Source: a virus. Taken from it: a stretch of DNA of 39,020 nt. Of the stretch, positions 12,608 through 33,583 are shown piece by piece (the stretch's first letter is position 1; every line of letters starts with the position of its first letter). Position numbers and translations under genes: made by a program. The stretch is taken from IMG/VR virus record IMGVR_UViG_3300030333_005072, positions 8,753 to 47,772 of that record; one strand, given 5' to 3'. Below the pieces are notes generated by a model, which did not search any database, was not told where the DNA came from, and worked only from the letters and a program-made list of their open reading frames with translations.

Positions 12608-12860
12608 GCACAGCCAAACAAGGCGTGTTGCTAACGTGACAAGTGCCGTGTACCTCAGGGGTTTATGTCTTCCCTTGGCATAGACCCCGAACAATTATGT
12701 GTGGATGCGTGATACATACCCCACGTCACATAATAACAGAAAACAACTAATAGGGGAGTAAAGGAAGGGGCAAGTAGAGATGTTGCATAGTCATAAAATC
12801 ATACTCTATGTGCCGACTCCCCTATTACTAACCAATAACAGTAAAATAAAGGAGGGCTAT
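12608..12860 (+). promoter_or_regulatory. Structured leader of the ubiquitin-like cassette (three inverted repeats)
   Basis: These 253 bp contain no credible gene but three successive inverted repeats. 12658-12688 is GGGGTTTATG with CATAGACCCC (10 bp, one wobble, 11-nt loop). 12694-12734 is ATTATGTG with CACATAAT, plus inner TGG/CCA. 12749-12826 is AATAGGGGAGT with ACTCCCCTATT, a perfect 11-bp closing stem enclosing 56 nt with smaller pairings such as CATAG/CTATG. The third ends 25 nt before the GGAGGG of the Ubl gene. Together they look like a folded 5' leader, which could act as terminators, processing sites or a regulatory RNA. Confidence 0.6.
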
Positions 12861-13073
12861 ATGCCTGATATTAAACTAATGAACAATACTGCTAACTTCG
12901 CTGATGCTACTGTTAGAAGCACGAATGTTAGCGAATTAAAAGAGGAGTTAAGTATTCCTCATAACTCTACGATCAATGTTAATGGAGTTATTGCTAATAA
13001 CAGCACTGTCCTTGAAGATGGTCAGTACATTGCAATTGTTACAGATAATAAAACTGGTGGCAAAGGCAAATAA
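12861..13073 (+). CDS. Ubiquitin-like modifier (ThiS/MoaD-type beta-grasp) with C-terminal Gly-Gly and tail
   Basis: The 70-residue protein has the pattern of a sulfur-carrier or ubiquitin-like beta-grasp fold. Residues ~36-42 (STINVNG) and 49-60 (TVLEDGQYIAIV) match the VxVNG and LxDGDxVAII strands of ThiS/MoaD relatives. The C-terminus is DNKTGGKGK, with Gly66-Gly67 followed by Lys-Gly-Lys. A mature Gly-Gly end would need removal of three residues, as with ubiquitin precursors. The ATG is set by AAAGGAGGG. It is followed by E2-like, JAB and E1-like genes, so conjugation to proteins is more likely than cofactor synthesis: no ThiG, MoaE or other cofactor gene is nearby. A PRTRC-C-like or BilA-like relative is the best comparison. 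The fold is inferred from motif pattern, not modelled. Confidence 0.8.
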   Translation: MPDIKLMNNTANFADATVRSTNVSELKEELSIPHNSTINVNGVIANNSTVLEDGQYIAIVTDNKTGGKGK

Positions 13074-13084
13074 CATAAACACAA

Positions 13085-13150
13085 GAGCGGCACACGGTAA
13101 CAGCCCGAGTCTATAAGACATCAAAAATGTGCAAATCAAGCTTGCTGCTC
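13085..13150 (+). ncRNA. Cloverleaf-like structured element between Ubl and E2-like genes
   Basis: GAGCGGCA (13085-13092) pairs with TGCTGCTC (13143-13150), 8 bp with one G-U. Inside lie several small stems in series: CGG/CCG, GTCT-ATA-AGAC, ACAT/ATGT, and GCAA with TTGC around a 7-nt loop. The total length resembles a tRNA, but the D-, anticodon- and T-arm signatures are absent, so a functional tRNA is not claimed. It lies 8 bp before the E2 gene's ribosome binding site and could set the Ubl to E2 expression ratio. Confidence 0.45.
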
Positions 13151-13169
13151 ACAATTTAAGGAGGGATAT

Positions 13170-14633
13170 ATGCTATTACACGAGTATAATCCAAATCTTA
13201 GAGAACTATCAGAAGAGATATTACTTGGCCCACAGGCTGAGGTTCTTGAAAAGATAAATGCTTTTAATCAATCGTGGATTCAGCGCGTACCTGACTTAAA
13301 GCATATTAAATGCACAAAAACATTTAGGTGGTCACCAGGTATGGTTGAGATTGTTAAGACAGCAACAATGTACAATGTACTGCAATGGCACAAGAAAGGT
13401 AATGTTAAGTTTGTGTATACACGTAGAGATGATCATAGTTGGAACTGGAATAGAATGAGAGACCAAATAATAGAGATAGACCTTATGTTATCTAGATTAA
13501 GAAGTAGAGGCCTCGTATTCCAAGACAATACTGAATTAATAAGAGATAAGTTCACTGAGTGGAAATCATTACTTATAGAAAGATTAGCAGATGTAAATGC
13601 TGTTACTCAAGAAAGAGCTACATTTAGCGTAAGTATTGAAGAGCAGAGAAGTCCACAGGTTGTAATAACTCTACGATTAAATGACCCCACTATAACTGTT
13701 ACAAATGAACATAATGTTATAGGCGAAGTAAATGTAGGTAACTGTGAGTTTAGATTTAAATTCGACTTAATAAAATATATCAATCAATTATGTATAAGAG
13801 AGATTGATGAAATGAGGAATTCAAATATAAACATAAAAGCTGATGGTAAAACAGAAGATGATGATGCCAGAAGTACTAGTTATCCTACATTGTTATTCCC
13901 ATACATTGGTAGATTTTATAACTATAGAGGCGAATCTGACCCTAATTCATATAGAAATATATGTCTTGGAGACTTTCAAAGAGAAGCGTTTGATGCTATA
14001 GCTAAGAGTGATTTAATGGCGTTATGGATACATATGCAAGGTATACTTAGATATGATTATCCAAGTACTAATCCATTAAATAACTTAAGACTATCATTCT
14101 ATGGAATGCCATCACACCACGGAGATTCGTTTAGAAGAATAGTAGGGCAAAACACTGAAGAATGTGCTAATAGATTATGGAACAGCATCACACTTGACTC
14201 ACGTTTAATGTGGGTTGGTCCAGATTCACAGACATATCTAGAACAAAACAGAGAAGAGGCAGAAGAATCAATACAAGAGTTTAGAAGCTTTTGTAATGAT
14301 ATTGACTGCACATTAAGAGATGAATGTGATAGATATAGAGAAATAGCAGCACATAGAGAGCCAGAAGAAAATGTTGTTGTACAAGACATACCTGGCCAAG
14401 AGATGACTGTGAATGAACAAGCAGAAGCACACGAAGTAACTGCAGAAGAACAAGCAGAAGCAGAAAACGTGTCAGAGGAGACTATCACACAAGATATGAC
14501 TCCTACAACTATAGAACCAGATCAAGAAACTGATGAACAAATCCAAGAGCGTATGAGACAATGGGCTAATACTTGGGGCAACAATACCATCTTAAACTTT
14601 GATCATAACACTGAGGAGGACGCAAATGTCTAA
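13170..14633 (+). CDS. E2-like (UBC-fold) ubiquitin-conjugating protein with long extensions
   Basis: The 487-residue protein contains a segment typical of prokaryotic E2-like proteins: FPYIGRFYNYRG, then YRNICLGDF, then SDLMALWIHMQGILRYDYPSTNP (residues ~245-300). Cys265 in NICLG is the predicted catalytic cysteine, corresponding to ICLD in eukaryotic E2 enzymes and CLG in bacterial relatives. A beta-rich stretch at ~150-200 (ATFSVSIEEQ, QVVITLRL) could supply the preceding meander. The N-terminal 140 residues are helical and basic. Residues ~395-487 are a Glu-rich, low-complexity tail with two related phrases (TVNEQAEAHE, TAEEQAEAEN). The ATG has AAGGAGGG. The 3' end overlaps the JAB gene. 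The UBC call depends on the cysteine motif and on the neighbours; other parts are unrecognised. Confidence 0.68.
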   Translation: MLLHEYNPNLRELSEEILLGPQAEVLEKINAFNQSWIQRVPDLKHIKCTKTFRWSPGMVEIVKTATMYNVLQWHKKGNVKFVYTRRDDHSWNWNRMRDQIIEIDLMLSRLRSRGLVFQDNTELIRDKFTEWKSLLIERLADVNAVTQERATFSVSIEEQRSPQVVITLRLNDPTITVTNEHNVIGEVNVGNCEFRFKFDLIKYINQLCIREIDEMRNSNINIKADGKTEDDDARSTSYPTLLFPYIGRFYNYRGESDPNSYRNICLGDFQREAFDAIAKSDLMALWIHMQGILRYDYPSTNPLNNLRLSFYGMPSHHGDSFRRIVGQNTEECANRLWNSITLDSRLMWVGPDSQTYLEQNREEAEESIQEFRSFCNDIDCTLRDECDRYREIAAHREPEENVVVQDIPGQEMTVNEQAEAHEVTAEEQAEAENVSEETITQDMTPTTIEPDQETDEQIQERMRQWANTWGNNTILNFDHNTEEDANV

Positions 14634-15519
14634 CTTTTATATGGCAGAACAGCACTGGAAGAAGATTATACAATACTCCCAGGCTGCATATGATAACTGG
14701 AAGTCTGAAATAAGCGGAATGATGATAGCTTATAAAGATAAAGAAGGCGATTACTTGCTAACTGAGCCTGTTATCTTAAAACAAACAGTTTCAGGAGCTA
14801 ACACAACATTAGATAAAGAGGCCTTAGCTGAATACTATGTTAAAACAGCAATGAAACACAAAAAGAAAGATAGTTTACAGTTCGTATGGTGGCATAGTCA
14901 TCATACAATGGACGCATTCTGGAGTGGAACAGATCTATCTACTATAGAGGAGATGAGTGAAGGAGCTATGTCACTATCATTAGTAGTTAATCTTAAACAA
15001 GAATACAAGTTCAGAGTCAGTATCTGGGATCCAATTGAGATGCATAAGGATATAGAGATAAAGATAATGGGTAAAGACAAGAAGATACCAGCTAAGATAA
15101 TGACTGAAGTAACAGCAATGTGTGAGAAGCCAACAACTGTAGTTTCTAACATGTGGACTAGTAAAAGAAAATCAAACTCAGATAGAGTACAAACATCATT
15201 ATTTAATGAGAGCTACTTAAAACATCCAAGTCAAGTAGAAGAAATAGCTAGTGATATTGATGATATTATATCTGAATATTGTAGTGGAAACAACGCCTTT
15301 GATGAAGTAAAAGGTATGTTTAAAGCTATAAATACACAATTACACGAAGAAGGAAGCGTGTATAGAGTAGGTATTCCAAAGACTCAAGAGGAACTCGATT
15401 CTATAGCAATGTATATACTACCCTATAAGTATATATATAAGGCTACAGATATAGAAGAGTGGTCTGTGGAAAAAGTAATGTATGGCGATATGGGAGGGAC
15501 ATTTAATGATCTCGTATAG
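14626..15519 (+). CDS. JAB/JAMM (MPN+) metalloprotease, deubiquitinase-like
   Basis: The 297-residue protein is predicted to be a zinc isopeptidase that trims the Ubl precursor and/or removes it from targets. The full JAMM signature is present: Glu28 (SEISGMM), then H90-S-H92, seven residues, Ser100-Gly-Thr-Asp103 in WWHSHHTMDAFWSGTD. The JAB domain fills residues ~10-140. The C-terminal ~150 residues are mixed and unrecognised. The ATG at 14626 is chosen over an upstream in-frame ATG because GAGGAGGA is six bases before it; it overlaps the E2-like gene by 8 bases. Its own end overlaps the E1-like gene by 14 bases. All catalytic residues are intact. There is no NlpC/P60 partner, so it is not the phage-tail JAB type. 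Confidence 0.88.
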   Translation: MSNFYMAEQHWKKIIQYSQAAYDNWKSEISGMMIAYKDKEGDYLLTEPVILKQTVSGANTTLDKEALAEYYVKTAMKHKKKDSLQFVWWHSHHTMDAFWSGTDLSTIEEMSEGAMSLSLVVNLKQEYKFRVSIWDPIEMHKDIEIKIMGKDKKIPAKIMTEVTAMCEKPTTVVSNMWTSKRKSNSDRVQTSLFNESYLKHPSQVEEIASDIDDIISEYCSGNNAFDEVKGMFKAINTQLHEEGSVYRVGIPKTQEELDSIAMYILPYKYIYKATDIEEWSVEKVMYGDMGGTFNDLV

Positions 15520-16159
15520 ATATGAAGGCATAGTTGATAACTTTGCTGATTACACCTATCACATACTAGGTTGCGGGGCAATAGGGAGCTCCGCAGCTAC
15601 CCAAATAACTAGAATGGGAGGTAGAAACTTTAAATTATATGATATGGATATTGTCAGTGATGAGAATATAGGAGTTTCTATGTATAGAGATAATCAAGTT
15701 GGAGAAAATAAAGTAAATGCTTTATATACTTTAATAAAAGAAATAAGTCCATCTATCGAAGTATCTTTATATCATAAGTTATTTGAAGATTATTATCCAG
15801 AAGGAGCTGATATAATAGTATTAGGGTTTGACTCTATGAAAGCTAGATTTGATGCTATGGAAACAATCTTAAGAACAAAACAACCTGATTATGTTATAGA
15901 TGGTAGAATGGGTGCTGAGCATTATCAGCAATATACTATATTTAAACCTACTATAATGAAATACAGTAAAACTTGGTATTCAGACGAGGATGGAAGTCCT
16001 GAACCCTGTAATGCTAAGGCTACAAGCTATTGTAGCAATATGGCTGGAAGCTTTATATCTAACACAATAAGAAAGATATGTAGTAAACAGCCTTATCACG
16101 GGAATATTTCCTTTAACTTCCCAACAATGACACTTGAAAAATCGGGGTATATTTCGTAA
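15506..16159 (+). CDS. ThiF/E1-like Ubl-activating enzyme
   Basis: This 217-residue minimal E1-type adenylating enzyme is predicted to adenylate the Ubl C-terminal glycine and pass it on as a thioester. The nucleotide-binding GCGAIG is at 22-27, acidic residues D46/D48 in LYDMDIVSDENIG, the Arg-containing MYRDNQVGENKV (R61, K69), and D109 in LGFDS. Cys168 and Cys176 in EPCNAKATSYC are candidates for the catalytic cysteine. There is no CxxC zinc pair and no C-terminal ubiquitin-fold or rhodanese domain, so it is shorter than ThiF/MoeB (about 250). The ATG at 15506 is preferred because GGGAGGG precedes it. Last gene of the cassette; a hairpin overlaps its 3' end. Confidence 0.88.
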   Translation: MISYRYEGIVDNFADYTYHILGCGAIGSSAATQITRMGGRNFKLYDMDIVSDENIGVSMYRDNQVGENKVNALYTLIKEISPSIEVSLYHKLFEDYYPEGADIIVLGFDSMKARFDAMETILRTKQPDYVIDGRMGAEHYQQYTIFKPTIMKYSKTWYSDEDGSPEPCNAKATSYCSNMAGSFISNTIRKICSKQPYHGNISFNFPTMTLEKSGYIS

Positions 16160-16198: not shown

Positions 16199-17065
16199 AT
16201 GCTAAATATTCAAACAGTTACGACTGATTGGAAGGAAGGATTGCCTGGAGGTTTAACCTGGTATTTTGTAGGACAACCTAAGACAGGGAAAACAACTCAA
16301 TCCTCTAGATGGAGCAAGAAAGGTTCTAAAGGTGTATTAGTAATAGATACAGATTTAGGATCTGACTTTGTTGATGGTGCAAATGTAGTTACTTGTACAT
16401 CATTAACTCCACCAATCAGGCCAGTAATGAAAGATGGTGTACAAATCACCAAAGATGGAAAACCACAACAAGAAATAATACCTAATAATGAAAGAGGTTA
16501 TTATTATAGGAGTGGTCCTAAAGCAGGAGAGCCAATGGATACATATTCATTAGGCGAAATACTTAAAGATCTAGAAACAAACTGGGATAAATATGAATTT
16601 GACACAGTAGTTATTGATACTATTGATCAAGTTAATACCTGGATAGAAGATAAAGTTACTAGTGAAATGGGTATAGCAGCTATGGGAGATGGACAATGGG
16701 GCTCAGATTGGGCTCAAGCTAGAAAGAAAAACCTAGATGTTGTAGTTAGATTACAACGATTCCTTAAAATGGTAGGTGGAAATCTAGTATTAATCAGTCA
16801 TAGCAAACCAACAGCAGTGGTAGATAATAAAGCTCAACTAGGACCAAGTTTACCTAGAGGGCTCGCATACAGCCTTACTGCTAAAGCTGATGTTATTGGT
16901 TTATGTCAAGCCGATAAAGAATCAGGTGAGTATATGGTATCATTCGAAGCTTACGATGAAAGAATGGTAGGTTCAAGATTGAGACCATTATCACAAAAGA
17001 AACTGCCATTTAACTATGGCGCTGTAATTAACGCAATAAAATCATATAAAGAACAAGGAGAATAA
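16199..17065 (+). CDS. Sak4-like RecA-fold ATPase (single-strand annealing/recombination)
   Basis: The 288-residue protein belongs by pattern to the short phage RecA-type ATPases often called Sak4, which act with an SSB in homologous recombination. Walker A is GQPKTGKTT at residues 25-33, Walker B FDTVVIDT at ~134-141, and a sensor-like segment GNLVLISHS lies later. It has no N-terminal DNA-binding or C-terminal RecA regulatory domain. The ATG follows AGGAGGA. The next gene starts four bases after its stop and encodes a putative SSB, the usual Sak4 partner. The role in recombination is inferred from family and context. Confidence 0.8.
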   Translation: MLNIQTVTTDWKEGLPGGLTWYFVGQPKTGKTTQSSRWSKKGSKGVLVIDTDLGSDFVDGANVVTCTSLTPPIRPVMKDGVQITKDGKPQQEIIPNNERGYYYRSGPKAGEPMDTYSLGEILKDLETNWDKYEFDTVVIDTIDQVNTWIEDKVTSEMGIAAMGDGQWGSDWAQARKKNLDVVVRLQRFLKMVGGNLVLISHSKPTAVVDNKAQLGPSLPRGLAYSLTAKADVIGLCQADKESGEYMVSFEAYDERMVGSRLRPLSQKKLPFNYGAVINAIKSYKEQGE

Positions 17066-17068
17066 TAT

Positions 17069-17662
17069 ATGGCTATTATGAGAGCTTCTTCAGGTGGTGC
17101 AAACTGGCTTGGAGTACAAAAAGCAGGTATTAAAGACGTAAAAGACGACTCAGGAAGATTTGACTGGGCTGATGTTTATTTAATCTTTGAAATGGATACT
17201 GAAAACAGTGACTTTGAAAGAGCAATGAAAATAACAGGTCAATTTGATTGGAATCCTGATGGTACAATACAAGCTACAGGTCTAGTTAGAAAGATTAATA
17301 ATATGTGTGATGCATTAGGATGGGACGGAGGAGTCAACCAAAACGGTAAATGGGTTGATGAGAACGAACAACCTATAGCTGATATATCTTCATATTTGAG
17401 AGATAAATTTGCTCAACCAACTGGAGATGTAGATAGAAAATTCTTAGTATATGTATATAAAGAAGACGCTAAAGATGGAAAGACATATACAAGAGTACAT
17501 CATCGTTTCTTTGCTAATAAACAAGGCGCTGAAGCTGCTTTAACTGATCATGTAGATTATATGAAGAAGAATGGTTGGATAAAAGAATCAACTGGTATAA
17601 ATAAGCCAGCTGAAGTCGCTAATGACAGTGTTGCTAGTGAGCTCAGCAGCTTTGATGTATAA
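17069..17662 (+). CDS. Putative single-stranded DNA-binding protein
   Basis: The 197-residue protein lies directly after the Sak4-like ATPase and before the primase-helicase. It has beta-rich sections (ADVYLIFEMD, KFLVYVYKED) with many aromatic residues, and ends in a flexible tail with final residues SELSSFDV, loosely like the acidic/hydrophobic tip of SSBs. No exact OB-fold signature is evident by eye. The ATG follows AAGGAG. The helicase start overlaps its stop by 8 bases. Context is the main evidence; an accessory recombination factor is the alternative. Confidence 0.6.
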   Translation: MAIMRASSGGANWLGVQKAGIKDVKDDSGRFDWADVYLIFEMDTENSDFERAMKITGQFDWNPDGTIQATGLVRKINNMCDALGWDGGVNQNGKWVDENEQPIADISSYLRDKFAQPTGDVDRKFLVYVYKEDAKDGKTYTRVHHRFFANKQGAEAALTDHVDYMKKNGWIKESTGINKPAEVANDSVASELSSFDV

Positions 17663-19490
17663 TAAACTAGAGATAGCAATGGGAGGGCCTCGTTACAGAG
17701 GCTCTTTCATTAATTCTAGTGATTTAGGAGGTATAATAAGAAATGCTAATAAAGACACACCTAAAGAGTTATACAGGTCTGTTTATGTGTATGATGATTT
17801 GGCTGTTAGTTTTGCAGAATCACACAACAGCAGCATTGCAAGGTATTCTGGACCAAGAGCCATTGACAAAATCTTTATTGATATTGATAAAGGTAACAAT
17901 ACTGACAATTACGTACTTAACCAGGCTCAAGCCTTAGCTTTCTTCTTAATAGATGAAGCTGAGTTAATGGACGAGAATTTCAGGATTTATTTCTCTGGCT
18001 CAGGTTATCATTTTGCTTTAGATGGAGGTTTATTTAATTTTGAACCTTCACCACAATTACCATTTCTAGTCAAGAACACAATGAGTAAACTATTTAAAGA
18101 TGTGGCTAACATAGATACTATGATCTATATGGCAACAGGACTATATAGAGTACCACATACTATCAATTCAAAGACTCAATTGTATAAAGTTCCTCTGACT
18201 AGAAATGAGTTAATGGGCTTAAATCCAGAAGATATACACGAATTAGCTAAAACTCCACGCTATGACTTTCCTTATACAAAGATGTGCGGAGAAGGAGAGT
18301 TAGAGTCGCATATATATACAGCAGAAAAACCAGAAATATATGAATTTGGTCAAGCAGTAGAACCTAAAAAGGTTGCAACGTGTATACAAACATTGTATGC
18401 AGAAGGCGCACAAGAAGGTTCTAGACATCATAAGTTATTAAGATTAATATCACACTTTAAAAGACACGGTATCCCATCTCAAGCAACCAAGTCATCAATG
18501 TTACATTGGAATGCAGGAAGCTTGAAGGATAGAGAAGTAATATTTCAAGTAGAAGATATTTATAAAAGAAACTTAAGATATGGCTGCCAAGATACTATAT
18601 TGAAATCTGTTTGTAGTCCTAAATGTATATATTACAAAAATAAAGACTATAGTATAGATGTAAAGAACGCATCTGATATGCAAAAATCACTAAGAGAAAG
18701 AATGACCACTGATTTTACAGGAAAAGCAATTGATTTTGCTGCAATGCTTGGCCTGGATACAGATTGTACATTTTATCCAGGAGAGCTAGTAACAATCTTT
18801 GGTCCAACAGGCTCAAATAAAACTACGTTAGCACAAAATATAGCGTTGGGATATGATTTTGTAAACGACAAAATAGATCGTAACAGACAAGTACCAACAC
18901 TGTATTTATCGTTAGAACTTGCAGACTGGGTTATGCATAGACGTAACTTACAGATCATAACAGGAAAGACAAAAGAGGAGATAAATGAATCATATGATGA
19001 GGAGTTTGAAAAACACCACGATTTATTATCTCACTTAGCAATACAAACGATAACGCCAACACTAGAATCAATAACAAAGAAAGTTGAAGAGCTCCAACCA
19101 GCGTTAGTGATTGTAGATTACATTGATTTGGTAGAAACACCATTTAATGTAAGAGGAGAGTATGAGCAAATAAAGTTCATTTCACATAGTTTATCATCAT
19201 TAGCTGTAAATTCAGACATTGTAATTATACAAGTTTCGCAAGTTAGTAGAGACTATTCTAGAAATCAAGTTCTTGATCTGTACGCAGGAAAGGGGTCAGG
19301 AGCTATAGAAAATGCATCAAGAAAAGTTATTGGTGTAAATGGTCAAGCTGGAAGCTTTGATAAGACAGTACATTGTTTTAAGAACACAGATGGTGATCTA
19401 TTTGAAACGAAATTAACTTTTGACACGTCATTCAGACTAAGAAAAGGAGGTGCGAATGAGTCGTTCGGAAACATCTCGAGAATTGATTGA
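17655..19490 (+). CDS. Primase-helicase fusion: AEP-type primase plus DnaB-like helicase
   Basis: The 611-residue replication protein has an N-terminal part that matches archaeo-eukaryotic primase (AEP) motifs. IFIDIDKG contains metal-binding D76 and D78, and YFSGSGYHF at ~112-120 is the second AEP motif. A Cys-bearing segment (CQDTILKSVCSPKC) at ~312-325 may bind zinc or an Fe-S cluster. The C-terminal half is a RecA/DnaB-type helicase: Walker A GPTGSNKTT at 383-391, Walker B LVIVDYIDL around D488, then IIQVSQVSRDYSR. The start is taken as the ATG overlapping the SSB-like stop; an ATG 24 bases later is possible. The fusion replaces separate primase and helicase genes. No DNA polymerase is present in the window. 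Confidence 0.85.
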   Translation: MYNKLEIAMGGPRYRGSFINSSDLGGIIRNANKDTPKELYRSVYVYDDLAVSFAESHNSSIARYSGPRAIDKIFIDIDKGNNTDNYVLNQAQALAFFLIDEAELMDENFRIYFSGSGYHFALDGGLFNFEPSPQLPFLVKNTMSKLFKDVANIDTMIYMATGLYRVPHTINSKTQLYKVPLTRNELMGLNPEDIHELAKTPRYDFPYTKMCGEGELESHIYTAEKPEIYEFGQAVEPKKVATCIQTLYAEGAQEGSRHHKLLRLISHFKRHGIPSQATKSSMLHWNAGSLKDREVIFQVEDIYKRNLRYGCQDTILKSVCSPKCIYYKNKDYSIDVKNASDMQKSLRERMTTDFTGKAIDFAAMLGLDTDCTFYPGELVTIFGPTGSNKTTLAQNIALGYDFVNDKIDRNRQVPTLYLSLELADWVMHRRNLQIITGKTKEEINESYDEEFEKHHDLLSHLAIQTITPTLESITKKVEELQPALVIVDYIDLVETPFNVRGEYEQIKFISHSLSSLAVNSDIVIIQVSQVSRDYSRNQVLDLYAGKGSGAIENASRKVIGVNGQAGSFDKTVHCFKNTDGDLFETKLTFDTSFRLRKGGANESFGNISRID

Positions 19491-22843: not shown

Positions 22844-23066
22844 TAACGCAGAGCCAAGAAGGCTATTAAAGTGTGAAATGTGCCATGTGACAGGTACCAC
22901 AGAAGTATATACTTGGGGGAGTTTCGAAATACTCCCCAAGCACCCTTACTATGAAATGAAGATATGTAAAAAATGTGCTAAAAGAGAGTATGGAACCAAA
23001 AACAAAGTCAAGTTCGATGATTATATCGAAAGGAGAATGTATGCCAAAGAAAAGCAAGTGGATTGA
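22827..23066 (+). CDS. Small zinc-finger-like protein
   Basis: The 79-residue protein has two Cys pairs, LKCEMCHV near residue 16 and KICKKCAKRE near 48, about 30 residues apart, consistent with a single treble-clef or ribbon zinc site. The C-terminus is basic. The start codon overlaps the end of the membrane-protein gene; there is no strong ribosome binding site but coupling is likely. Possibly a nucleic-acid-binding regulator. Confidence 0.65.
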   Translation: MSYGINNAEPRRLLKCEMCHVTGTTEVYTWGSFEILPKHPYYEMKICKKCAKREYGTKNKVKFDDYIERRMYAKEKQVD

Positions 23067-23292
23067 TCTAGGTAAAGTAAGACTCAACTTAAATGAAGAG
23101 TCTAATGAGGCCAACAGACAGCCACACTTTAGAGGTATCTTACCTGCACAACAAAAGATAGAAGAAGGTGATGAAATTTACCTTGCAGGTTGGATAAACA
23201 AGAACGAAAACGACAAGATAACAGGTCTATATTTTACACTTAGTATGCCAGAAAAGAGTAAAGTTAAAAAAGACGACGATCTACCGTTTTAA
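23041..23292 (+). CDS. Small unknown protein
   Basis: The 83-residue protein starts MPKKSKWIDLGKVRLN. The ATG at 23041 is preferred to an earlier in-frame ATG because AGGAGA lies just before it. The middle is beta-like (EIYLAGWINKNENDKITGLYFTLSMP), and the C-terminus is acidic and ends DDDLPF, like the tip of SSB tails that recruit partners. An OB-fold-like ssDNA-binding role is conceivable, but no family is recognised. Stop and next start overlap (TAATG). Confidence 0.6.
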   Translation: MPKKSKWIDLGKVRLNLNEESNEANRQPHFRGILPAQQKIEEGDEIYLAGWINKNENDKITGLYFTLSMPEKSKVKKDDDLPF

Positions 23293-23697: not shown

Positions 23698-25011
23698 TCA
23701 AAAAAGATTTTCTTCATCTAATACAAAAGGCTCTGGATGGGGAAGATAACCTTTCATTGACTCTAGTTTTTTCTTCTCCTTAATTACAAACTCTTGATTC
23801 TTTTCTATTCTTTCTAACTGTTCATTATCTAACACATGCTTAGACTTTAATATCTTCTCATTACAAGCAAGAGCAATATCAAATCTATTTACATATGTAG
23901 CAGAGACAGACAACTCATCCCAAAACGCCCAATCTCTTATAAAATTATCTATAAATAGTTCTCTAAAATGAGCTGGAACTTCTAATCTACTTTTATATAG
24001 GAAAGAAGGAACTCTTAATGCTGCTAAACCTATATTTACTGCAGGAAAGAATAACTTTTGATGCCTATAATGTCTCATTATGAAAAAATAAGCCTCTACA
24101 GTTCTAGCTGGGCATGATTGAGATGCCATAAAGAAACACTCAACAGCTTTACTTCCTTCCCCTAAGTTTCCATAGCAATGTCCCATTCTTATTTGAGAAA
24201 CAAACACTTCTTCTGCCCATCCACCAGATTCAGCTCTTTTTTTATAATACTTAATAGCGTCTTCCCATTTAGCATTGTCATAATAAGTGTTAGCCAAATA
24301 GAAGTAGTTCCTTTCCTTAGGCCCATTACCCTCTTCAATAGCCTTTAATAATATATTGCTATCACGTTTAAGTCTATCAGCTCCACTCATCTCTTTATTT
24401 CTTTGCCCATTTCTAAAAGACATTATACAGTATTCTCCAGGCATAAATGCTTTACTAATATCTTTCTCTTTCCATGTCATATATTCATGGACAGGACACA
24501 TCCAGAAGACTTTAATATTACCAGGCCAAATAAGAGGTCTATAATAATAATTAGCTGGAGTTCCTAATTTTACATTATACACTGTATTTTTTTTCATATC
24601 AGAGAAATCTAAGTCTCCATATAAAATATCATCAGCATCCATAGTAAACACGTAATCAGCTGAATTATAAGCAGCTTTACTAGCCATAGTTCTATTTTTA
24701 CCAAAGTCATTATACCACTTATGATGGAGTATTTTTCCTTTAATCTTATGCTTGTCGAAATATTCTTTAATTAAATCAGGAGTACCATCAGTGGATCCTG
24801 TATCACAAATAACATAAGTGGTTATATAGGGTAATAATGGTTCAAAACATCTACGTAAATTAGACGCTTCATCTTTTACTATCATATTAAGGCATACAGT
24901 AGTGCCTTTAGGTAATTTACTCCCAGGGAGATTTGAAGCCAAATGGGATTTCTTCGTCCCTATATTTTTTAGCTTCTCTTCCAACTTGGAGATATGGGAT
25001 TCCAGTTGCAT
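23698..25011 (-). CDS. GT-A (GT2) glycosyltransferase with C-terminal TPR-like repeats
   Basis: The 437-residue protein has an N-terminal GT2 domain (residues ~38-210): VCLNMIVKDEASNLRRC, then CDTGSTDGT, then the metal-binding DADD near residue 126. The C-terminal part has helical TPR-type repeats: FYLANTYYDNAKWEDAIKYY, then IRMGHCYGNLGEGSKAVECF. Proteins of this layout glycosylate surface or virion components. The ATG at 25011 follows AGAGGAA; this places its first ~32 codons inside the giant-protein gene, a 95-base overlap. A later Met lies within the first beta strand and is too late. Co-transcription with virion genes suggests virion glycosylation; the substrate is unknown. Confidence 0.85.
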   Translation of the reverse strand: MQLESHISKLEEKLKNIGTKKSHLASNLPGSKLPKGTTVCLNMIVKDEASNLRRCFEPLLPYITTYVICDTGSTDGTPDLIKEYFDKHKIKGKILHHKWYNDFGKNRTMASKAAYNSADYVFTMDADDILYGDLDFSDMKKNTVYNVKLGTPANYYYRPLIWPGNIKVFWMCPVHEYMTWKEKDISKAFMPGEYCIMSFRNGQRNKEMSGADRLKRDSNILLKAIEEGNGPKERNYFYLANTYYDNAKWEDAIKYYKKRAESGGWAEEVFVSQIRMGHCYGNLGEGSKAVECFFMASQSCPARTVEAYFFIMRHYRHQKLFFPAVNIGLAALRVPSFLYKSRLEVPAHFRELFIDNFIRDWAFWDELSVSATYVNRFDIALACNEKILKSKHVLDNEQLERIEKNQEFVIKEKKKLESMKGYLPHPEPFVLDEENLF

Positions 25012-28000
25012 GTTCTATTCCTCTACTTGGGTTTTCTATTGTTTTCTTGACATCTCTTAGCATTCGTCCAGCAGGAAACATGGTCCATATATAATAATCT
25101 GAAATCTTACCCCAATCATCTGAAAGCATAGCTCTAAATGAAGGAGGTCCTAATCTCAATATAGGAGGAGTTACCATTTGTAAAGGAGCAACCTGGGATG
25201 GCCAAGCTCCAAAGAAAGCTCTATCTCTTTCTCTTTCATCACCGAATAACCATTCTGATGTATCTTGCATCCAGCTATAAGGAGCAGGTAATGCTGATTC
25301 AAATATAGAATAAGCGAACACATTTGCCATTCCTAGAACAAACATATCTGTTATCGCCATTCTTTTAAAAGCTTCGAATTCAGGAGTACCTTCCATAAAG
25401 CCGTGTAAATGGGCTTGATTTATGATGTCCTTTCTAAACCTAACAGAGTTCCATGCCCACAACTGAAACCTTGTCCATACTTTACCTAGAGCAGTCCTAG
25501 CAAAAGCAGGTCTATAAGGAGCAGAATATAAAAACTGTGTAGCTTGCACACCTTTCTTAGCCATCTGTATTAACATAGGATGATCTAATGGCATATCTGC
25601 ATTGCCAAATCTTTGTCTTGCTGCTAAATAATGGGCAACAAAAGCATCCCTTCTAAGAGTTCTTTCAGGAGCTCTCATAAACCAAGACAGTTTATCCATA
25701 ATACTGTCTGAAATGCCGTGTTTTGTAGCTAAATCACGTATCTTAGAGTCTTTGACTTTAGGGTCTTTTTTTATCATATCAACTATTTCATTGAACGCAT
25801 CTTTATATCTACCTTTTCCATACACTGGATTTGCCCCAATCTCATGCAAGAACATCTCAGGTATAACACCATGTTTAGTTACCCAATCATTAACCTCTTC
25901 CATACTAGACCATGGTTTTTCTTTACCATCCTTACCTATCCTTCTTGGTAGATTAAGGTCTATAAATTTTATATTTCTAGAGTTTTTAAAGTTACCCCAT
26001 CCAGCTGAGATCATTGTATGTAGAGTACCACCATATAGGTTTGCTACTGCAGATTTAGGATGCGCTAATAAGCTAGCCATTGAGAATTTAGCTTCAAGGT
26101 TAGACCAATGTCTAATATCATTAACGTCAATTCTTCTTAGTTCTTCAGGCAATTTAGTATCTTTACTGATACCTAATTTCTCTTTAATAGTAGATAATCT
26201 ATTGGCCACCCTATTATCTGCAAACCATTTATAAGGAGTACCACTAAGCTTCATGTTTGGGTCATTAACCATATAGTCAGGAATAACACTTGGATAACCC
26301 ATAGCATCTTGAGCATATAAATCCATATAATTATACCAAGCTCCAGTAAGCTTTTTACCCCATTTATTTCTAAACTCAAAATAGAAATCTTCCATAGATT
26401 TTCTAGTTAAAATCTGAGCTATTTGTCTATGAAATGTATCTATTAAGTTCTTTTGATACACCTCATAAGACTGAGGATCAGTTCTCCATCCAGGTATATG
26501 TGAGGTTCTACTCCTCATATTACCAGTAGAAGGATTCTGTTCAAACCATCTAACATGTTCACTATTAGATTTCTTAGCTGCAATATCTCTTAAAGCTCCT
26601 GAAAAATGATGAAAATCTTCTATATCTCCAGTTAACCATTCACCTTGAATAGATTTATACTTATAAAGCATCTTTTGTATTTCTTCAGCTTTAACCTTTC
26701 CTTGGTATCCTTTAGGAGCATCAGATCTATTTGTTGGCCAATCAGCTCTTTCATTTATAATCTTTATAGTTTTCTTAATATACTCACCAGCTCTTCTTCT
26801 ACCAGCTTGATCAAAAAAGTGAGGATAATAGTTTTCTGCAGGATAATCCCCAGTAGGCATAATTTTATTCTTAAGTAAAACTTCTTTAAACTTCTTACTT
26901 GCCATACCAGACTGAAGCATCACAGAGCGACTTATCTTACGAATACCATCCATACCGAACTTCTCTATTGGAATGGCGTTTCCTACCTTAAACTGCTCAT
27001 TAATATATCTAACAAACTTATTGACGTCTATTTTAGGCTGAGTTTGAGCAACATCATAAAACTGAGGTTCACCTTTTTTCTTTTGAATAAACTTATATAT
27101 AGTAGTCTTAGTTATGTCCTGCTTTACCCAAGTCTTATTTGCCCTATCGTAAAAGAATTCATCACCTTTAATCCATTGCATAGTCTCTATATTACGCTCA
27201 GTTAAAGCCTCGTTTATACGTTCAACCATCTGAGAACCAGTTAATTTTTCAACTTTAGTTCCAGTTTGAACCTCAATCTCAGTATCTTTTAACTCTTTCC
27301 AATTGATACGTTCTAATACTTCTTTATTAACCTGTTCATAAGCCTGTTTATGCATCATAGATAATGGGTCATTAGGGTCCCATCTCATTTTCTGAGGCAT
27401 CCCTTGCTCTCTTATTACAGCAGCTGCTTCATAAAGGTCTCTACCACGCTCTGTATTTAACATTCCTGTCTTTTTTAATGCCTCATTATGAACACCTCTT
27501 TGAACCTCTTCCATCTTAAGTGCTAAATCTGTTGCCTTACCATTCCAGAACTGAGAGCGCTCTATATAGAAAGTAGGCTTAGCTAAAGTTCCTTGCTTTA
27601 CTTCACCTTTATAATTAGTAAAAAAGCCTTGCTCATGAGCCAGTTTAAACTCATGTCTCATTAAATCTCGATTAACAGCTCTAGGAAACATCCACCAATG
27701 TCTTTGTGACAACTCTTTACTAAGCTTATTGCCAGTAAAACTCTCAAACATCCTAGCAAACCAAGTTCCAGACCTTAAATCATTAAAATGTCTATTCATA
27801 GTTCTAAAGTCTTCAAGGGTAAACGCTTCTAAATCTTTATTTAACCATTTTCTAGCAATTAAATTTAAGTCTTCACCTATACTATTATTGTAATAATTGA
27901 TATTGTCAACTAATTGATCGGCTACTTTCTGCATTTCAGGAGTAGTTTTAGTACCAGCTTTAGCCTTAACTCTATCTACCCAAGCATAAGGATCTTCAAA

Positions 28001-31000
28001 CGGATCAACATTCTTAATTTCCTCTACATCCTTAGGTTTATAAGAATCTACTTCTTTCTGAATCTTTGCAGTTTCTTTTTCTGTTGAAGGGTAAGTTTCT
28101 TCCCTAAACAGCTTTCCATATTCTTTTAAAAACTTAGAAACATTTTTATCAGAGACTGCAGAACTACCAAGCGCAGTTCTAGACATGTTTGTAGCATTAA
28201 CTGCCTTAAGCAGCTCATTGTAAGATGCTTGCTCATGAGGTCTTATTTTCTTTTTAGACTTCATAACTCTTTGAAGTTGCTCATAAGGGCCTCTATTTAA
28301 AGAAGATAGTAATAACATGTCAAAAAACTCAGCTTCTTGAACTGTTAATGGTCTTTTCCACTTATTACCTTTACCAATATTAAACTTAAACTCTCTTATT
28401 CTTAAATCTAAATTAGACCTATCTTGATGAGCAGCCTTCATTTCACCTACAGTTAATTCGTCTTCAATCTTAACTTTTTTATCTTTAACCTGCATTTTCT
28501 TAATTTTTTTAACTAGATTAGGATTTCTCTGAAGAAAGTTCATATGATCTATATCTTTAACATGCTGCGCAAACTTTGAAGATGTCTGTATAAAGTCCCT
28601 TCCAAAGTCAGTATTAGGGATCTCACTGGCTAATCTAGAAATTATATCAGCACTAGTCATATCATATAAGTCATTTATCATAAAGTCTTCTGCAGTTCTT
28701 ACATATTGCTCAACAGCATACCTTCTAAAGGCTTCACCTTTTGGTCCACCTTCATTAGCTTTTTCCCAAAACTCTGCGGAGTCCCATTTAGAACCTTTAA
28801 AGATCTCACGAAACTCCGCATCCTTGTAGGTAGCTAAAGCCTCTCTGTTTGCCCAATCCATTAATCTTCTTGTATATACCGTATTAATCATTTTAGCGCC
28901 ACCAACATTTGGATTGAAAGGCACAGCGAAGGTTCCTCTTCCTAGTAAACTTCTTAATCTATTATAATCACCAGTTTCCATACGTTTCTTAAACGTCTTA
29001 TATAAAAGGTCAACCTCTGATGCACTTATCCTATTAAAAGGAGAGTCACTATAGTCTACCTCTCTAACTAATTCTGCCATTTTAGGTAGCATTGTACTTC
29101 TTCCAGGTAGATTATTTAATCCATCTGATAATGCCATTACCTCGTCAAAGGTATGAGCTCTACCTTGTCCCCAGTTTCTTCCATAATAAGCGCTATTAAT
29201 ATCATGTAAAGTCTTATATATTTCCATTCCTCTATAAGCTTTAACCTTATTTATTTTTCCCGCATTCCAAGCTGCTTTATGTTTTTTTGCAACCTCAACT
29301 TCAAAGAAAGACTCAAAAGCCTTCTCAAAGAAGTGATCACGAGAGCGTAAGCCTAATTCATCTAAAGGGTCAGATGGAAAGGCGATTTCTGATCTCATTA
29401 GCTCTCTAGAGTAGTTTAAGTTCTTTCTAGGTTTCACTTTACCAAACCAAGTCTCTACATACCCTTTAGGACTATTCTTAACTTCAGCATAAGCGGACGT
29501 TAATATCTGCTTACTAACAACAGAAGGACCAAGTTGATTACGACCAGCAGCTGCCTCTTGAGAAATGTTTAATCTATGTTTAGGTGAGTACATCCATACT
29601 TGAGACTTCTTTAATGCTCTTTCTTTTTTGGTGCCTTCATGTGTTTTCGTAAGAAGGTGCCTATAGGTAGATCCCTTAGGCATGTTATACATTTTTCTAA
29701 CCCATTCAGGGAGGGGAGCTGTTTTATTGTCACTAATTTTTCCTTCTTTGTCGAGGAATTCCATCTTGTTTTTGCCATAGGCATCTCTCCATGATTTCTT
29801 AAAGCCAAAAAATACGAAAGCTTTATCACCATCAAGATCAGCACCACCAAGAGCTCTCATAGACCTAGGATGCATAAGTATACCATGTCCTTCTATACCA
29901 GTAAAACCTCTAAACTTTAAAACATGAGCGCCAGATATAGAATCCATAGGAACTCTTAAAGACACACTAGTTAAGAATTCTTTAACATTAGGTTTATGAC
30001 CATAGGAATCCCAAAGTTCTCCAAGCTTCATACGTGTCTTTCCAGCTATAAGTCCTTCTGGTAATTCCAATTGAACATTCCTATATGCGTCATCTAAATA
30101 AAATATATCGTCCTTAGTTTCAAGCTCTTTAAATCTCCTATCTTTTCGCATCCAATAACTGTAAGGTCTCATTCTAGCAGATAAACTATTAGGAAGTTTT
30201 GGTCTAAATACTTGATTAGCAATATAGTTTTTCATAGCAGTCATTCTATAATCTCTAACATATTTATGCATGTAAGAACCTATATGGTCTCCAAGTTTTA
30301 ACATTCTTTCAGTTGGAGAAGAATAATCGCTTTGTTCGCTTATAAAGTTTTCTGCCATTTCAGGGTCTATATCCCTACTAGCAGCCATCTCTGAAGCATT
30401 CTTAGCATTTACCTTTAAAATCTCCGAATAAACCCTTTGAGCTAATTTAGCAGGTTCTTTACCTGGCATCTTCATAACCTGTAATAACTCATTCATATTA
30501 ACACGTTCTATATTTACAGCTATATCTTCAATAACTTCATTGTTCCACTTACCTTTAGTATTAGCAAGTTTTCTAAGTTTAGCTGTGTAAGTAGGATCTC
30601 CATCCCACCCAGTTTTAACTATACTTTGAAACATATCTTCAATAACTTTTGGATTAATATTCTCTTTAGCCCAAGGAGTTAAGTTAGTTAATAATTGCTT
30701 AGGAACTCTTTGAGGTTGTATCATATGGAAAGTTTGTTTTTCTGAGTATATACCCCTAATATGATTAATCTCCATTTCATACACTTTAGGTTCGACTTTA
30801 CCAGATACAATATCATCCATCTTATATATCTCTCTATTGCCAAATTGCTTAGCTGCGCTTCTTGGTATCATCATAGCAACACCTTTAGACTTCATAAATG
30901 CATCAGCAGGAGCTAAATCTGTATGAAACATATACTTCCCTAGTAGAGCTCCTCTTTTTGCATTTGGAGACACTATAAATGATTTATTTTGACCTGAAGA

Positions 31001-33583
31001 TGGCATACCAAAATCTTCATTCATAATATCAAGCCAGTCTTTCCTAATTGGTATAGCTCCATCTGTAGCCTCAGTATATTCTGACGCTTTAGACTTATTG
31101 TTTAATTTCTTACCTGGAGCGTCTTCATACAATATAAATCGAATCCTACCTGCTTTAAGAGAGGTCTTTTCTTCAGGTTTCCAATAATCTGTTTTAATCT
31201 TATTTTTATAAAATTCTGTGTTAGCTTCATATCCATTAGTAAACCATATTTGAGCTCTTTTATTATAGGCTACAGCATTCCCTATAAACTGACTACCAAA
31301 TATATCATTCCTACCTATAGTCCCGTTCATTTCTGCATCCCACATTACATTAGAAAGATATATCTTGTTAAATAGTTTGTCTGCTTCAGCCTTTTTCATA
31401 CCTATCATATCTTTAGCAAACTCTTCTCTCGCCTTTCTAAGAGCCTCAGTATTACTAAACCCTTCTTCTTTAGGCATAGACTTTACAGCTTTATCAACAG
31501 TAGTTTTAATTTTAGCAGAACTTAAATTTTCTATATCTGGGTGATTTTTTACAAATATCATTCTGTCTGCATCACCACGTCCAGAAAAATAATGATAACC
31601 CTTTTTTTCTAGCCCTTTATACCATTCTGTTAATTGTTTATTATAGGCTCGATTTCCAATCATATCCCTATAAGCAGTTAATGGAACCTCTTTATATCTT
31701 CCACCCTCTCTAATTACAACATGATCAATTGTAGCATAAGCTCTATCACCTCTATCTCTAACTACACCATTACGAAGGTCAGCATTTTTCATAGCAATCT
31801 CTATTGGCATTTCAGGGACAGGATTATGCTTCCTGTTTTTAGCTAGATTAATAGGATTGTTTATTTCCAATTCTGCCATTTGAGAAGAAGAATCAATAAT
31901 CCTCCCTTTTTCATCACCAGTTAACTTAGCGACAATGCTAAATTGTTTTGGATTCATTCCATTATTTCTAGTATTAATCCATTGTCTTAAATGACCTGCT
32001 TGTTCTTTATTTAGAGTAGTTTTAAACTCTGCTTCAATAGCCTTAACTAAGTCTTCTGATCTGTTAATCTTAGGAGTCTTTCTATTTTGAAACTTAGTTA
32101 GCAATGCATCTACTTTAACTGCGGCTTCTGTAATCTTAGGCATACTACCCTTATGAACACTAGGTAGACTATAAGTTGCGAAGTTCACTGCCTTTAATGT
32201 TATCTCTGGAGTAGCCACTTCATTTAAATCATTGTCAGACATTTTTGTAGTTTCTTTTGAGATGTCGATATTCTCACTTCTTTCTGGAATAGGTTTTTTA
32301 GAATCAATATCTTTAGAAGGTTTTCCCCATGATATTTGCCCAGCTTTATAATCTTCAGCCTTTTCAGGAGTTAGTAATGTTTCACCAAATTTATTAACCT
32401 TTCCAGTATCCTTAAAACCTTCATCTGGCATTCTATCAGTCTTAGATAATATCTGAGTATGTATAAAGCCAGATTCAGCAGCTGTCCCCCAGATTCTTCC
32501 TGCCTCTTCCTTGACTGCTTTTTTAACAGCAGGTGACAATTCTCCCCAACCAGGAGTAAGTTCAGGATCAAAGTTTAATTCTTCAGGCTTTTTCTCACCT
32601 CTTTTTTTAATATTATGAGTATTCATTTTCTTTAAAAACTCATTACGTCCTCTTGCTACAGCAGATGTCTCCATAGCTCCAAACATACCACCTAGTAAGT
32701 ATTGATAAACCTGCTGAGGAGTAGTATCACCCCTAAAGGTAGAAGGTAGCCCAGTAAATAAAGAACCAGCAAGAGCTCTAATTGCCATATCTTGTTTTTG
32801 TTCTAAAGTTACTATTCTTTTTCCAGTCTCATCTCTTACAAGCGTAACAGGTCTTTTAGCTCCAATTTCCCCTAAGCCTCTAAATACTCCACCTGCTATA
32901 AAACCATGCTTAGCTTGACTTAACATTTCATCTACACCATATTGCCAAGAACTAACAGCAGAAGCAATACCAAGATTAAATGCACCTTCTAATATATGTT
33001 TAGGTTTATCTTCTAATAAAAAGTCACTAACAGTTCTAGAAACACCAGCTCTTTGCTCTATTCCCTTTTTAAGAACACTATTGGCAACTTTAGAGCCATA
33101 ATCAGTAGTCTTCTTAGCAATCGCCATTGGAACAGATAACCTTCCCATTTCAGCAGCTTGAGCAAGTTTATGTGCCCCTATCTTTCTAAAGACTTTGCCA
33201 ACACCTGGTACGAAACCAGCAAATCCAGCCAAATGACCAATACTTCTAGAAATTTGCTCCATGTCACTAGTACCTTCAGCAAACCCAGGGTTCCATGTAG
33301 TTATACCATGAAAGAATCCTTTACCAAACTCACCTACTGTCTTTGCCAGTATATTTCTATCCTCTGGAGCCCTCATATTTTTATCTATGCCATACCATTC
33401 CATATGATCTTCGATACGTTTCGACTCTTTACTTGTATATCTATTTGGATTGTCTTGCCAATGCTTCATCATTCGTAATGTTGAATTGGCATCTAGAGTT
33501 GGGCTAAAGGATGTTTGGTAGTCTAATTTCTTATTGACTGCCCTAGCATATTGTGAAGGTAGTGTCTCATAGTCCCAAGCCAT
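24917..33583 (-). CDS. Giant virion-module protein with DxDGD RNA-polymerase-like motif
   Basis: The 2888-residue protein takes 22% of the window. Residues 1249-1253 are DLDGD within RALGGADLDGDKAFVFFG, the metal-binding signature of double-psi beta-barrel RNA polymerases. HGILMHPRSM just before it resembles the segment preceding NADFDGD in beta' and GxDLDGD in eukaryotic RdRPs. A helix-like AAAGRNQLGPSVVSKQIL ~100 residues later could match the bridge-helix region. A first barrel might lie near residues 900-945 (LLGKYMFH, KSKGVAMMIP). The N-terminal ~340 and C-terminal ~600 residues are helical with hydrophobic stretches, as in ejected proteins. The ATG follows TAGGAAAG. It lies among virion genes, so it may be packaged and injected. 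A multidomain polyvalent or ejection protein is the alternative. Confidence 0.65.
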   Translation of the reverse strand: MAWDYETLPSQYARAVNKKLDYQTSFSPTLDANSTLRMMKHWQDNPNRYTSKESKRIEDHMEWYGIDKNMRAPEDRNILAKTVGEFGKGFFHGITTWNPGFAEGTSDMEQISRSIGHLAGFAGFVPGVGKVFRKIGAHKLAQAAEMGRLSVPMAIAKKTTDYGSKVANSVLKKGIEQRAGVSRTVSDFLLEDKPKHILEGAFNLGIASAVSSWQYGVDEMLSQAKHGFIAGGVFRGLGEIGAKRPVTLVRDETGKRIVTLEQKQDMAIRALAGSLFTGLPSTFRGDTTPQQVYQYLLGGMFGAMETSAVARGRNEFLKKMNTHNIKKRGEKKPEELNFDPELTPGWGELSPAVKKAVKEEAGRIWGTAAESGFIHTQILSKTDRMPDEGFKDTGKVNKFGETLLTPEKAEDYKAGQISWGKPSKDIDSKKPIPERSENIDISKETTKMSDNDLNEVATPEITLKAVNFATYSLPSVHKGSMPKITEAAVKVDALLTKFQNRKTPKINRSEDLVKAIEAEFKTTLNKEQAGHLRQWINTRNNGMNPKQFSIVAKLTGDEKGRIIDSSSQMAELEINNPINLAKNRKHNPVPEMPIEIAMKNADLRNGVVRDRGDRAYATIDHVVIREGGRYKEVPLTAYRDMIGNRAYNKQLTEWYKGLEKKGYHYFSGRGDADRMIFVKNHPDIENLSSAKIKTTVDKAVKSMPKEEGFSNTEALRKAREEFAKDMIGMKKAEADKLFNKIYLSNVMWDAEMNGTIGRNDIFGSQFIGNAVAYNKRAQIWFTNGYEANTEFYKNKIKTDYWKPEEKTSLKAGRIRFILYEDAPGKKLNNKSKASEYTEATDGAIPIRKDWLDIMNEDFGMPSSGQNKSFIVSPNAKRGALLGKYMFHTDLAPADAFMKSKGVAMMIPRSAAKQFGNREIYKMDDIVSGKVEPKVYEMEINHIRGIYSEKQTFHMIQPQRVPKQLLTNLTPWAKENINPKVIEDMFQSIVKTGWDGDPTYTAKLRKLANTKGKWNNEVIEDIAVNIERVNMNELLQVMKMPGKEPAKLAQRVYSEILKVNAKNASEMAASRDIDPEMAENFISEQSDYSSPTERMLKLGDHIGSYMHKYVRDYRMTAMKNYIANQVFRPKLPNSLSARMRPYSYWMRKDRRFKELETKDDIFYLDDAYRNVQLELPEGLIAGKTRMKLGELWDSYGHKPNVKEFLTSVSLRVPMDSISGAHVLKFRGFTGIEGHGILMHPRSMRALGGADLDGDKAFVFFGFKKSWRDAYGKNKMEFLDKEGKISDNKTAPLPEWVRKMYNMPKGSTYRHLLTKTHEGTKKERALKKSQVWMYSPKHRLNISQEAAAGRNQLGPSVVSKQILTSAYAEVKNSPKGYVETWFGKVKPRKNLNYSRELMRSEIAFPSDPLDELGLRSRDHFFEKAFESFFEVEVAKKHKAAWNAGKINKVKAYRGMEIYKTLHDINSAYYGRNWGQGRAHTFDEVMALSDGLNNLPGRSTMLPKMAELVREVDYSDSPFNRISASEVDLLYKTFKKRMETGDYNRLRSLLGRGTFAVPFNPNVGGAKMINTVYTRRLMDWANREALATYKDAEFREIFKGSKWDSAEFWEKANEGGPKGEAFRRYAVEQYVRTAEDFMINDLYDMTSADIISRLASEIPNTDFGRDFIQTSSKFAQHVKDIDHMNFLQRNPNLVKKIKKMQVKDKKVKIEDELTVGEMKAAHQDRSNLDLRIREFKFNIGKGNKWKRPLTVQEAEFFDMLLLSSLNRGPYEQLQRVMKSKKKIRPHEQASYNELLKAVNATNMSRTALGSSAVSDKNVSKFLKEYGKLFREETYPSTEKETAKIQKEVDSYKPKDVEEIKNVDPFEDPYAWVDRVKAKAGTKTTPEMQKVADQLVDNINYYNNSIGEDLNLIARKWLNKDLEAFTLEDFRTMNRHFNDLRSGTWFARMFESFTGNKLSKELSQRHWWMFPRAVNRDLMRHEFKLAHEQGFFTNYKGEVKQGTLAKPTFYIERSQFWNGKATDLALKMEEVQRGVHNEALKKTGMLNTERGRDLYEAAAVIREQGMPQKMRWDPNDPLSMMHKQAYEQVNKEVLERINWKELKDTEIEVQTGTKVEKLTGSQMVERINEALTERNIETMQWIKGDEFFYDRANKTWVKQDITKTTIYKFIQKKKGEPQFYDVAQTQPKIDVNKFVRYINEQFKVGNAIPIEKFGMDGIRKISRSVMLQSGMASKKFKEVLLKNKIMPTGDYPAENYYPHFFDQAGRRRAGEYIKKTIKIINERADWPTNRSDAPKGYQGKVKAEEIQKMLYKYKSIQGEWLTGDIEDFHHFSGALRDIAAKKSNSEHVRWFEQNPSTGNMRSRTSHIPGWRTDPQSYEVYQKNLIDTFHRQIAQILTRKSMEDFYFEFRNKWGKKLTGAWYNYMDLYAQDAMGYPSVIPDYMVNDPNMKLSGTPYKWFADNRVANRLSTIKEKLGISKDTKLPEELRRIDVNDIRHWSNLEAKFSMASLLAHPKSAVANLYGGTLHTMISAGWGNFKNSRNIKFIDLNLPRRIGKDGKEKPWSSMEEVNDWVTKHGVIPEMFLHEIGANPVYGKGRYKDAFNEIVDMIKKDPKVKDSKIRDLATKHGISDSIMDKLSWFMRAPERTLRRDAFVAHYLAARQRFGNADMPLDHPMLIQMAKKGVQATQFLYSAPYRPAFARTALGKVWTRFQLWAWNSVRFRKDIINQAHLHGFMEGTPEFEAFKRMAITDMFVLGMANVFAYSIFESALPAPYSWMQDTSEWLFGDERERDRAFFGAWPSQVAPLQMVTPPILRLGPPSFRAMLSDDWGKISDYYIWTMFPAGRMLRDVKKTIENPSRGIEHATGIPYLQVGREAKKYRDEEIPFGFKSPWE

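Follow-up and report, generated by a model that had tools for sequence, protein, structure and literature searches.

We analysed a window of 39,020 nucleotides, comprising positions 8,753 to 47,772 of the 47.8-kb virus record IMGVR_UViG_3300030333_005072 (IMG/VR). The genes for terminase, portal and major head protein share one strand, and the early/replication block is located on the opposite strand. Within this block, four successive genes encode a ubiquitin-like modifier (Ubl), an E2-like protein, a JAB/JAMM isopeptidase (JAB) and an E1-like enzyme (E1), each preceded by a strong Shine-Dalgarno (SD) site:

12861..13073, +: Ubl, a beta-grasp modifier of 70 amino acids (aa) with the end ...NKTGG-KGK; SD AGGAGGG at 12850-12856
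13170..14633, +: E2-like protein, 487 aa, UBC-like core at about residues 121-292; SD AAGGAGGG at 13158-13165
14626..15519, +: JAB/JAMM isopeptidase, 297 aa; SD GAGGAGGA at 14613-14620
15506..16159, +: E1, a single ThiF-type adenylation domain, 217 aa from 15506; SD GGGAGGG at 15492-15498

Gene starts were refined by means of homolog starts and ribosome-binding sites. The listed starts of JAB (14599) and E1 (15482) are too early and were replaced by 14626 and 15506, respectively, so that the E2 stop and the JAB start overlap by 8 nt, JAB and E1 by 14 nt. A sequence-only reading of the window had described these four genes with their two overlaps as a complete conjugation cassette in an early operon near replication genes, comprising a modifier with a GG-KGK end, a JAMM protease with all catalytic residues and a ThiF/E1-like enzyme. 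All of this was confirmed by the results given below, and the E2 assignment was confirmed in part. The strong SD sites argue against the simple assumption of a Bacteroidota host.

Catalytic features of the four proteins

The modifier matched the Pfam family ThiS with E=6e-4, slightly below the Pfam cut-off. Its AlphaFold model is a beta-grasp fold (predicted local distance difference test, pLDDT, 84.9), for which Foldseek returned ThiS (3cwi) as best match, followed by SUMO, NEDD8 and the archaeal ubiquitin of Caldiarchaeum. K64, G66 and G67 are invariant in 22 aligned sequences. Behind a conserved [NDS]K[TVR]GG or KSG, the tails of the marine Ubls continue with 0-97 variable residues. Due to this fixed glycine end and the variable, sometimes absent tail, the protein has the appearance of a processed precursor, for which JAB would be the obvious protease.

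The catalytic centres of JAB, E1 and the E2-like protein were located at the following positions:

13962..13964, +: codon of the putative E2 catalytic Cys265, after F-P-Y-I (H-P-Y-I in homologs; HPN..C in classic E2)
14893..14934, +: JAMM core of JAB, HSHHTMDAFWSGTD; H, H, S and D invariant in 16/16
16007..16009, +: codon of the putative E1 catalytic Cys in the motif PCNAKAT / PCTAKHT (C-x-x-K-x-T), invariant in 16/16 including crAss001

JAB matched Prok-JAB with E=3.7e-5, again slightly under the Pfam cut-off. The glutamate and the HSHx7SxxD motif were present in all 16 aligned sequences, including that of the gut phage crAss001, two of them with a two-residue insertion. E1 matched ThiF with E=2.5e-18, and its profile matched Uba1, UBA6, UBA5, MoeB and Cap2. 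The residues G30xG32xxxS36 of the ATP site, R13, D54/D56, N62, K77, D117 and C176 are invariant in 16/16 sequences, crAss001 included. The regex-based picking of genes favours some catalytic residues; statements on invariance therefore rest on the alignments A1-A6.

For the 487-aa E2-like protein, the family scan gave no match. The core of its model (pLDDT >90) shows a UBC-like order of a helix, a run of strands, the Cys loop and two helices. A fold search of this core against PDB yielded nothing significant; its sub-threshold matches include TSG101-UEV and Cap2. The cysteine is invariant in both marine cassette types described below, namely in 39/39 sequences of type A, to which the window belongs, and in 10/10 of type B, there after HPH. 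The profiles of both types align at the active-site motif (E=1.4e-5), and the type B profile aligns in register with that of the crAss proteins (0.014). A fold search with the E2-like protein of the window recovered a 420-aa phage protein (E=1.8e-3), the length being that of the E2 of Flavobacterium phage Fpv1, and weakly a 435-aa protein of cr128_1, the length of its gp78 homolog.

Conservation and genomic location

Among the relatives of the terminase, 502 loci were found in IMG/VR. A ThiF profile search of 36 longer records among them gave a match in 13, and all 13 records reaching the locus exhibit the order Ubl - E2-like protein - JAB - E1 - Sak4. The cassette was present in 13 of the 14 relatives bearing a primase; in the remaining one (G020), only about 1.1 kb of contig lies upstream of the primase. 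The E1 profile detected at least 402 related loci and the type-B profile 171. Furthermore, the gene order is the same in 68/68 further loci (40 of type A, 28 of type B), which comprise all those extracted with E2, JAB and sufficient room upstream, and each of them has a Ubl with the tail motif. The cassette is core, not accessory, in this marine phage group.

Identity to the E1 of the window is about 54-64% for type A E1s and 19-24% over the full alignment for those of type B. The Ubl ends in GG in type A and in NKSG in type B; the Ubl profile of type A matches that of type B with 7.6e-5 and that of crAss with 2.6e-4. Relatives with a 63-65% identical Sak4 carry type B and relatives with a 25-33% identical Sak4 carry type A. 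This discordance indicates that whole cassettes were exchanged at the same place. In the E1 tree, both types form separate, well-supported clades; owing to long branches, the tree does not place them relative to PRTRC or ThiF. A GTDB scan with a narrow search pattern revealed one weak relative, by which absence from cells is only suggested. Single-sequence E2 and ThiF scans of viral contigs, whose patterns were too strict, gave no matches.

In the window, the cassette is followed by a Sak4-like protein, a 197-aa protein, a primase/helicase, Gp157 and an HNH nuclease. Two of these neighbours were assigned by profile:

16199..17065, +: Sak4-like annealing protein (phrog_124, E=7.7e-20)
17622..19490, +: primase/DnaB-type helicase (phrog_19, E=3.6e-27; phrog_16345, E=5.8e-20)

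A third version of the cassette (type C) was detected in crAss-like phages of the Steigviridae and in Flavobacterium phages, matched by the E1 of the window at about 30%. The phage crAss001 encodes the E1 as gp76, the JAB as gp77 and, as gp78, an E2-like protein with YMHSH...PCTG. The protein gp79 comprises an N-terminal beta-grasp-like domain ending in KKIKSG and a C-terminal extension of more than 100 residues. This module lies between the genes for primase and uracil-DNA glycosylase. Marine phages, Steigviridae and Flavobacterium phages all have the cassette in a replication module. In existing annotations, the third-version genes go under no other names than ThiF, metalloprotease or hypothetical. 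Beyond the single phage of the sequence-only reading, the cassette extends to hundreds of marine contigs, the cultured gut phage crAss001 and Flavobacterium phages. A complete Ubl kit thus belongs to the core genes of a widespread marine phage group and of crAss001, hidden by annotation.

Some further observations concern the third version. In most Steigviridae, crAss001 gp79 (L003:2241-2918) and its homologs (alignment A9) contain a C-terminal motif like S-x-x-E-I-x-x-M-F-x-F, possibly a second docking motif. Several cassette-bearing Steigviridae have an aspartyl protease gene near the DNA polymerase (crAss001 gp66, L281:19493-20008; also L282, L283 and L284), which is labelled retropepsin-like in Dulem virus 41. 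In Fpv1 (L193:4716-7008), JAB appears as two open reading frames split by a 250-aa gene on the opposite strand, which is suggestive of a mobile-element insertion or an intron.

A sliding-clamp-type motif

Beyond the JAMM aspartate, JAB continues with a linker, which is otherwise poorly alignable. About 75-105 residues past the aspartate a short motif recurs, in the window at residues 189-193:

15190..15204, +: putative clamp-type motif QTSLF in the JAB linker

Its forms are Q-x-x-[LMIV]-[FWLY] or Q-x-x-[LMI]-x-[FL]. The clamp-binding motif of bacteria is Q-phi-x-[LM]-[FL] or Q-phi-x-[LM]-x-[FL] and is located in tails or loops (PMC11139829). With JABs clustered at 60% identity, the motif occurs in 42 of 56 clusters, compared to 3.3 expected and a maximum of 9 in 500 local shuffles; among other segments of the same proteins, 5.3% contain it. 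The JAB of crAss001 carries QGELPF. The C-termini of type-B E2 proteins read QGTLF, QATLF, QLSF or QLSL in 22 of 31 distinct tails (0.05 expected). At the place of this Q-x-x-L-F tail, the type A E2 proteins have a conserved M-x-x-W-A element (alignment A6).

DNA polymerases served as a control. Those of 5/5 Steigviridae carry QGDLF, QGNLF or QRSLF at one aligned position, two of them with an additional N-terminal copy. The conserved QGDLF-type motif of these family A enzymes (crAss001 gp64, L281; L282-L285) suggests that they use the host clamp. In 10 marine records, neither the single Pfam model of the beta clamp nor the models of family A, B and C polymerases gave a match; a diverged phage clamp could have escaped this one model. 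One of the ten, G025, is probably a complete circle since its primase is split across the contig ends. Since none of these records has a recognisable clamp or polymerase, the host clamp probably serves as partner. The sequence QKKLPF in Sak4 was considered as a docking motif, too, and rejected, as it was judged part of a conserved fold segment rather than of a variable linker.

Proposed role and comparison with known systems

In bacteria, complete pathways of Ubl conjugation are known chiefly as defence or plasmid modules. The sequence-only reading had pointed to Bil and PRTRC as holders of the same parts, which is correct, although by the tests applied the phage cassette belongs to neither. 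Like the phage cassette, Bil (BilABCD) consists of Ubl, E2, JAB and E1. In Bil, the modifier is processed by BilC; two Ubl domains are found in BilA and a CEHH motif in BilB, while BilD forms an IAD-AAD pseudodimer and carries a Cys domain (PMC11354881). In contrast, the phage cassette encodes one Ubl domain (70 aa), a single-domain E1 of 217 aa and an E2 with HPx..C, and no conserved CEHH after the Cys was found in the E2 alignments. Bil membership was rejected as two-domain Ubl, two-domain E1 and CEHH were all lacking; in addition, the cassette is phage-encoded and a core gene set of the replication module. PRTRC clusters combine ThiF, JAB, Ubl and an E2-fold protein, and PRTRC protein B gives a weak alignment to the type-B E2 that is in register (ISGGSLCQGG, E=0.009). 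The curated PRTRC models stayed far below their cut-offs (PRTRC_A 13.0 vs 101.8 bits, PRTRC_ThiF 24.8 vs 144.75) or gave no match (B and C), and neither ParB nor PRTRC E/F was among the scanned cassette neighbours (comparison locus L279), so that PRTRC membership was rejected.

Iyer et al. (2006) predicted a Ubl-E1-E2-JAB conjugation for the bacterial operons 6a-6d (PMC1779556). These operons and Bub resemble the phage cassette in parts and predicted chemistry; the operons of that work differ in being bacterial operons or those of integrative conjugative elements or plasmids. The sole phage case found in that work is a Ubl-JAB pair of lambda/T1-like tails (PMC1779556). In the open literature searched, neither a complete phage cassette nor crAss001 gp76-79 as such a cassette was described; coverage of recent Bil/Bub papers was incomplete and an earlier mention is possible.

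The cassette very probably works as a Ubl system. In the cycle that we infer from the gene set, JAB would first cut the Ubl precursor behind its GG in type A and behind SG in types B and C. The homodimer-type E1 would adenylate the terminal glycine and accept the Ubl as a thioester, the E2 would receive it on the HPx..C cysteine and transfer it to lysines without a separate E3, and JAB would remove the tag again. Docking of JAB, and in type B of E2 too, on the sliding clamp by Q-x-x-L-F could place tagging and untagging at the fork. Candidate substrates are the clamp itself, the host polymerase, phage recombination proteins and competing repair proteins bound to the clamp.

The sequence-only reading had left the role broad, as modification of host or phage proteins or counter-defence. 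The complete cassette on which it rested is well supported, and the role can be narrowed to replication because the cassette is core to the group, is found in the replication/recombination module of unrelated lineages and carries the clamp-type motif in JAB and type-B E2. Taken as a whole, a reversible Ubl-conjugation module at the replisome, clamp docking included, is the reading that we favour with slightly better than even confidence. The more specific idea that phages of at least three lineages run a Ubl cycle on the host clamp or on clamp-bound proteins, with the eraser (in one type also the writer) docked there, is tentative and falls somewhat short of an even chance.

Several points weigh against a module acting at the clamp. 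Compared with the sequence that is optimal in E. coli, the motif is relaxed: G, T or R is frequent at position 2, and 13 of 37 pentamers have W at position 5, where this residue weakened binding in E. coli (PMC11139829). Fourteen of the 56 JAB clusters are without the motif in the tested segment, several of them having near variants, and the type A E2 of the window has no such motif. The neighbourhood of replication genes may reflect shared timing only. Finally, there is the missing significant PDB match of the E2-like protein. Together with the equally missing Pfam match it would fit a conserved phage protein of another kind with a coincidental motif. We consider this very improbable, since the Cys after HPx is invariant in two highly diverged types whose profiles align there, the order of helix, sheet, Cys loop and helix is like that of UBC, TSG101-UEV and Cap2 are among the sub-threshold fold matches, and the gene always sits between Ubl and JAB/E1.

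The same conjugation parts would serve a genuine Ubl system aimed at host or virion proteins generally, in which Q-x-x-L-F binds a non-clamp partner, and PMC12135933 cites a report that bacterial Bil tags phage tails. Such a target is nevertheless unlikely in view of the position inside the replication module in unrelated lineages and of the motif shared by the Steigvirid DNA polymerases. Counter-defence against host Ubl systems (Bil, CBASS Cap2/Cap3), e.g. by a competing Ubl or by a JAB stripping host tags, would agree with the known use of Ubl-based defence by hosts, the local resemblance of E1 to CBASS E1-E2 models and the whole-cassette swaps between related phages, which are reminiscent of arms-race genes. 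A JAB alone would be sufficient for this purpose, yet all four parts are always kept, the cassette is core rather than accessory, and location and motif are left unexplained; we therefore regard it as quite improbable. A sulfur-carrier or cofactor operon of the ThiS-ThiF type without protein conjugation could account for ThiS as best Ubl match and for the ThiF-type domain of E1. It is extremely unlikely, as ThiG, ThiH and MoaE, of which ThiG/MoaE-type partners had been named as the sign of such an operon, were not among the neighbouring genes scanned and as JAB and a conserved E2-like protein with an invariant Cys are always present.

Ubiquitin is used at eukaryotic replication forks. Should the cassette indeed act at the clamp, prokaryotes would have a counterpart to the ubiquitin/SUMO switching of PCNA, serving takeover or remodelling of the fork, the shared principle being conjugation and removal at a sliding clamp. 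This comparison is an analogy only, as clamp types and motifs differ and the phage side is known from genes. Four conserved genes of the Steigviridae would then have a function, and the origin of Ubl control of replication forks could be tested in a simple system.

Two genes elsewhere in the window are worth mentioning. A 2888-aa protein without Pfam match (24917-33583) adjoins a glycosyltransferase/TPR protein (23698-25011). A 105-aa protein (22975-23292) ends in KKDDDLPF, resembling the acidic tail of the bacterial single-strand DNA-binding protein.

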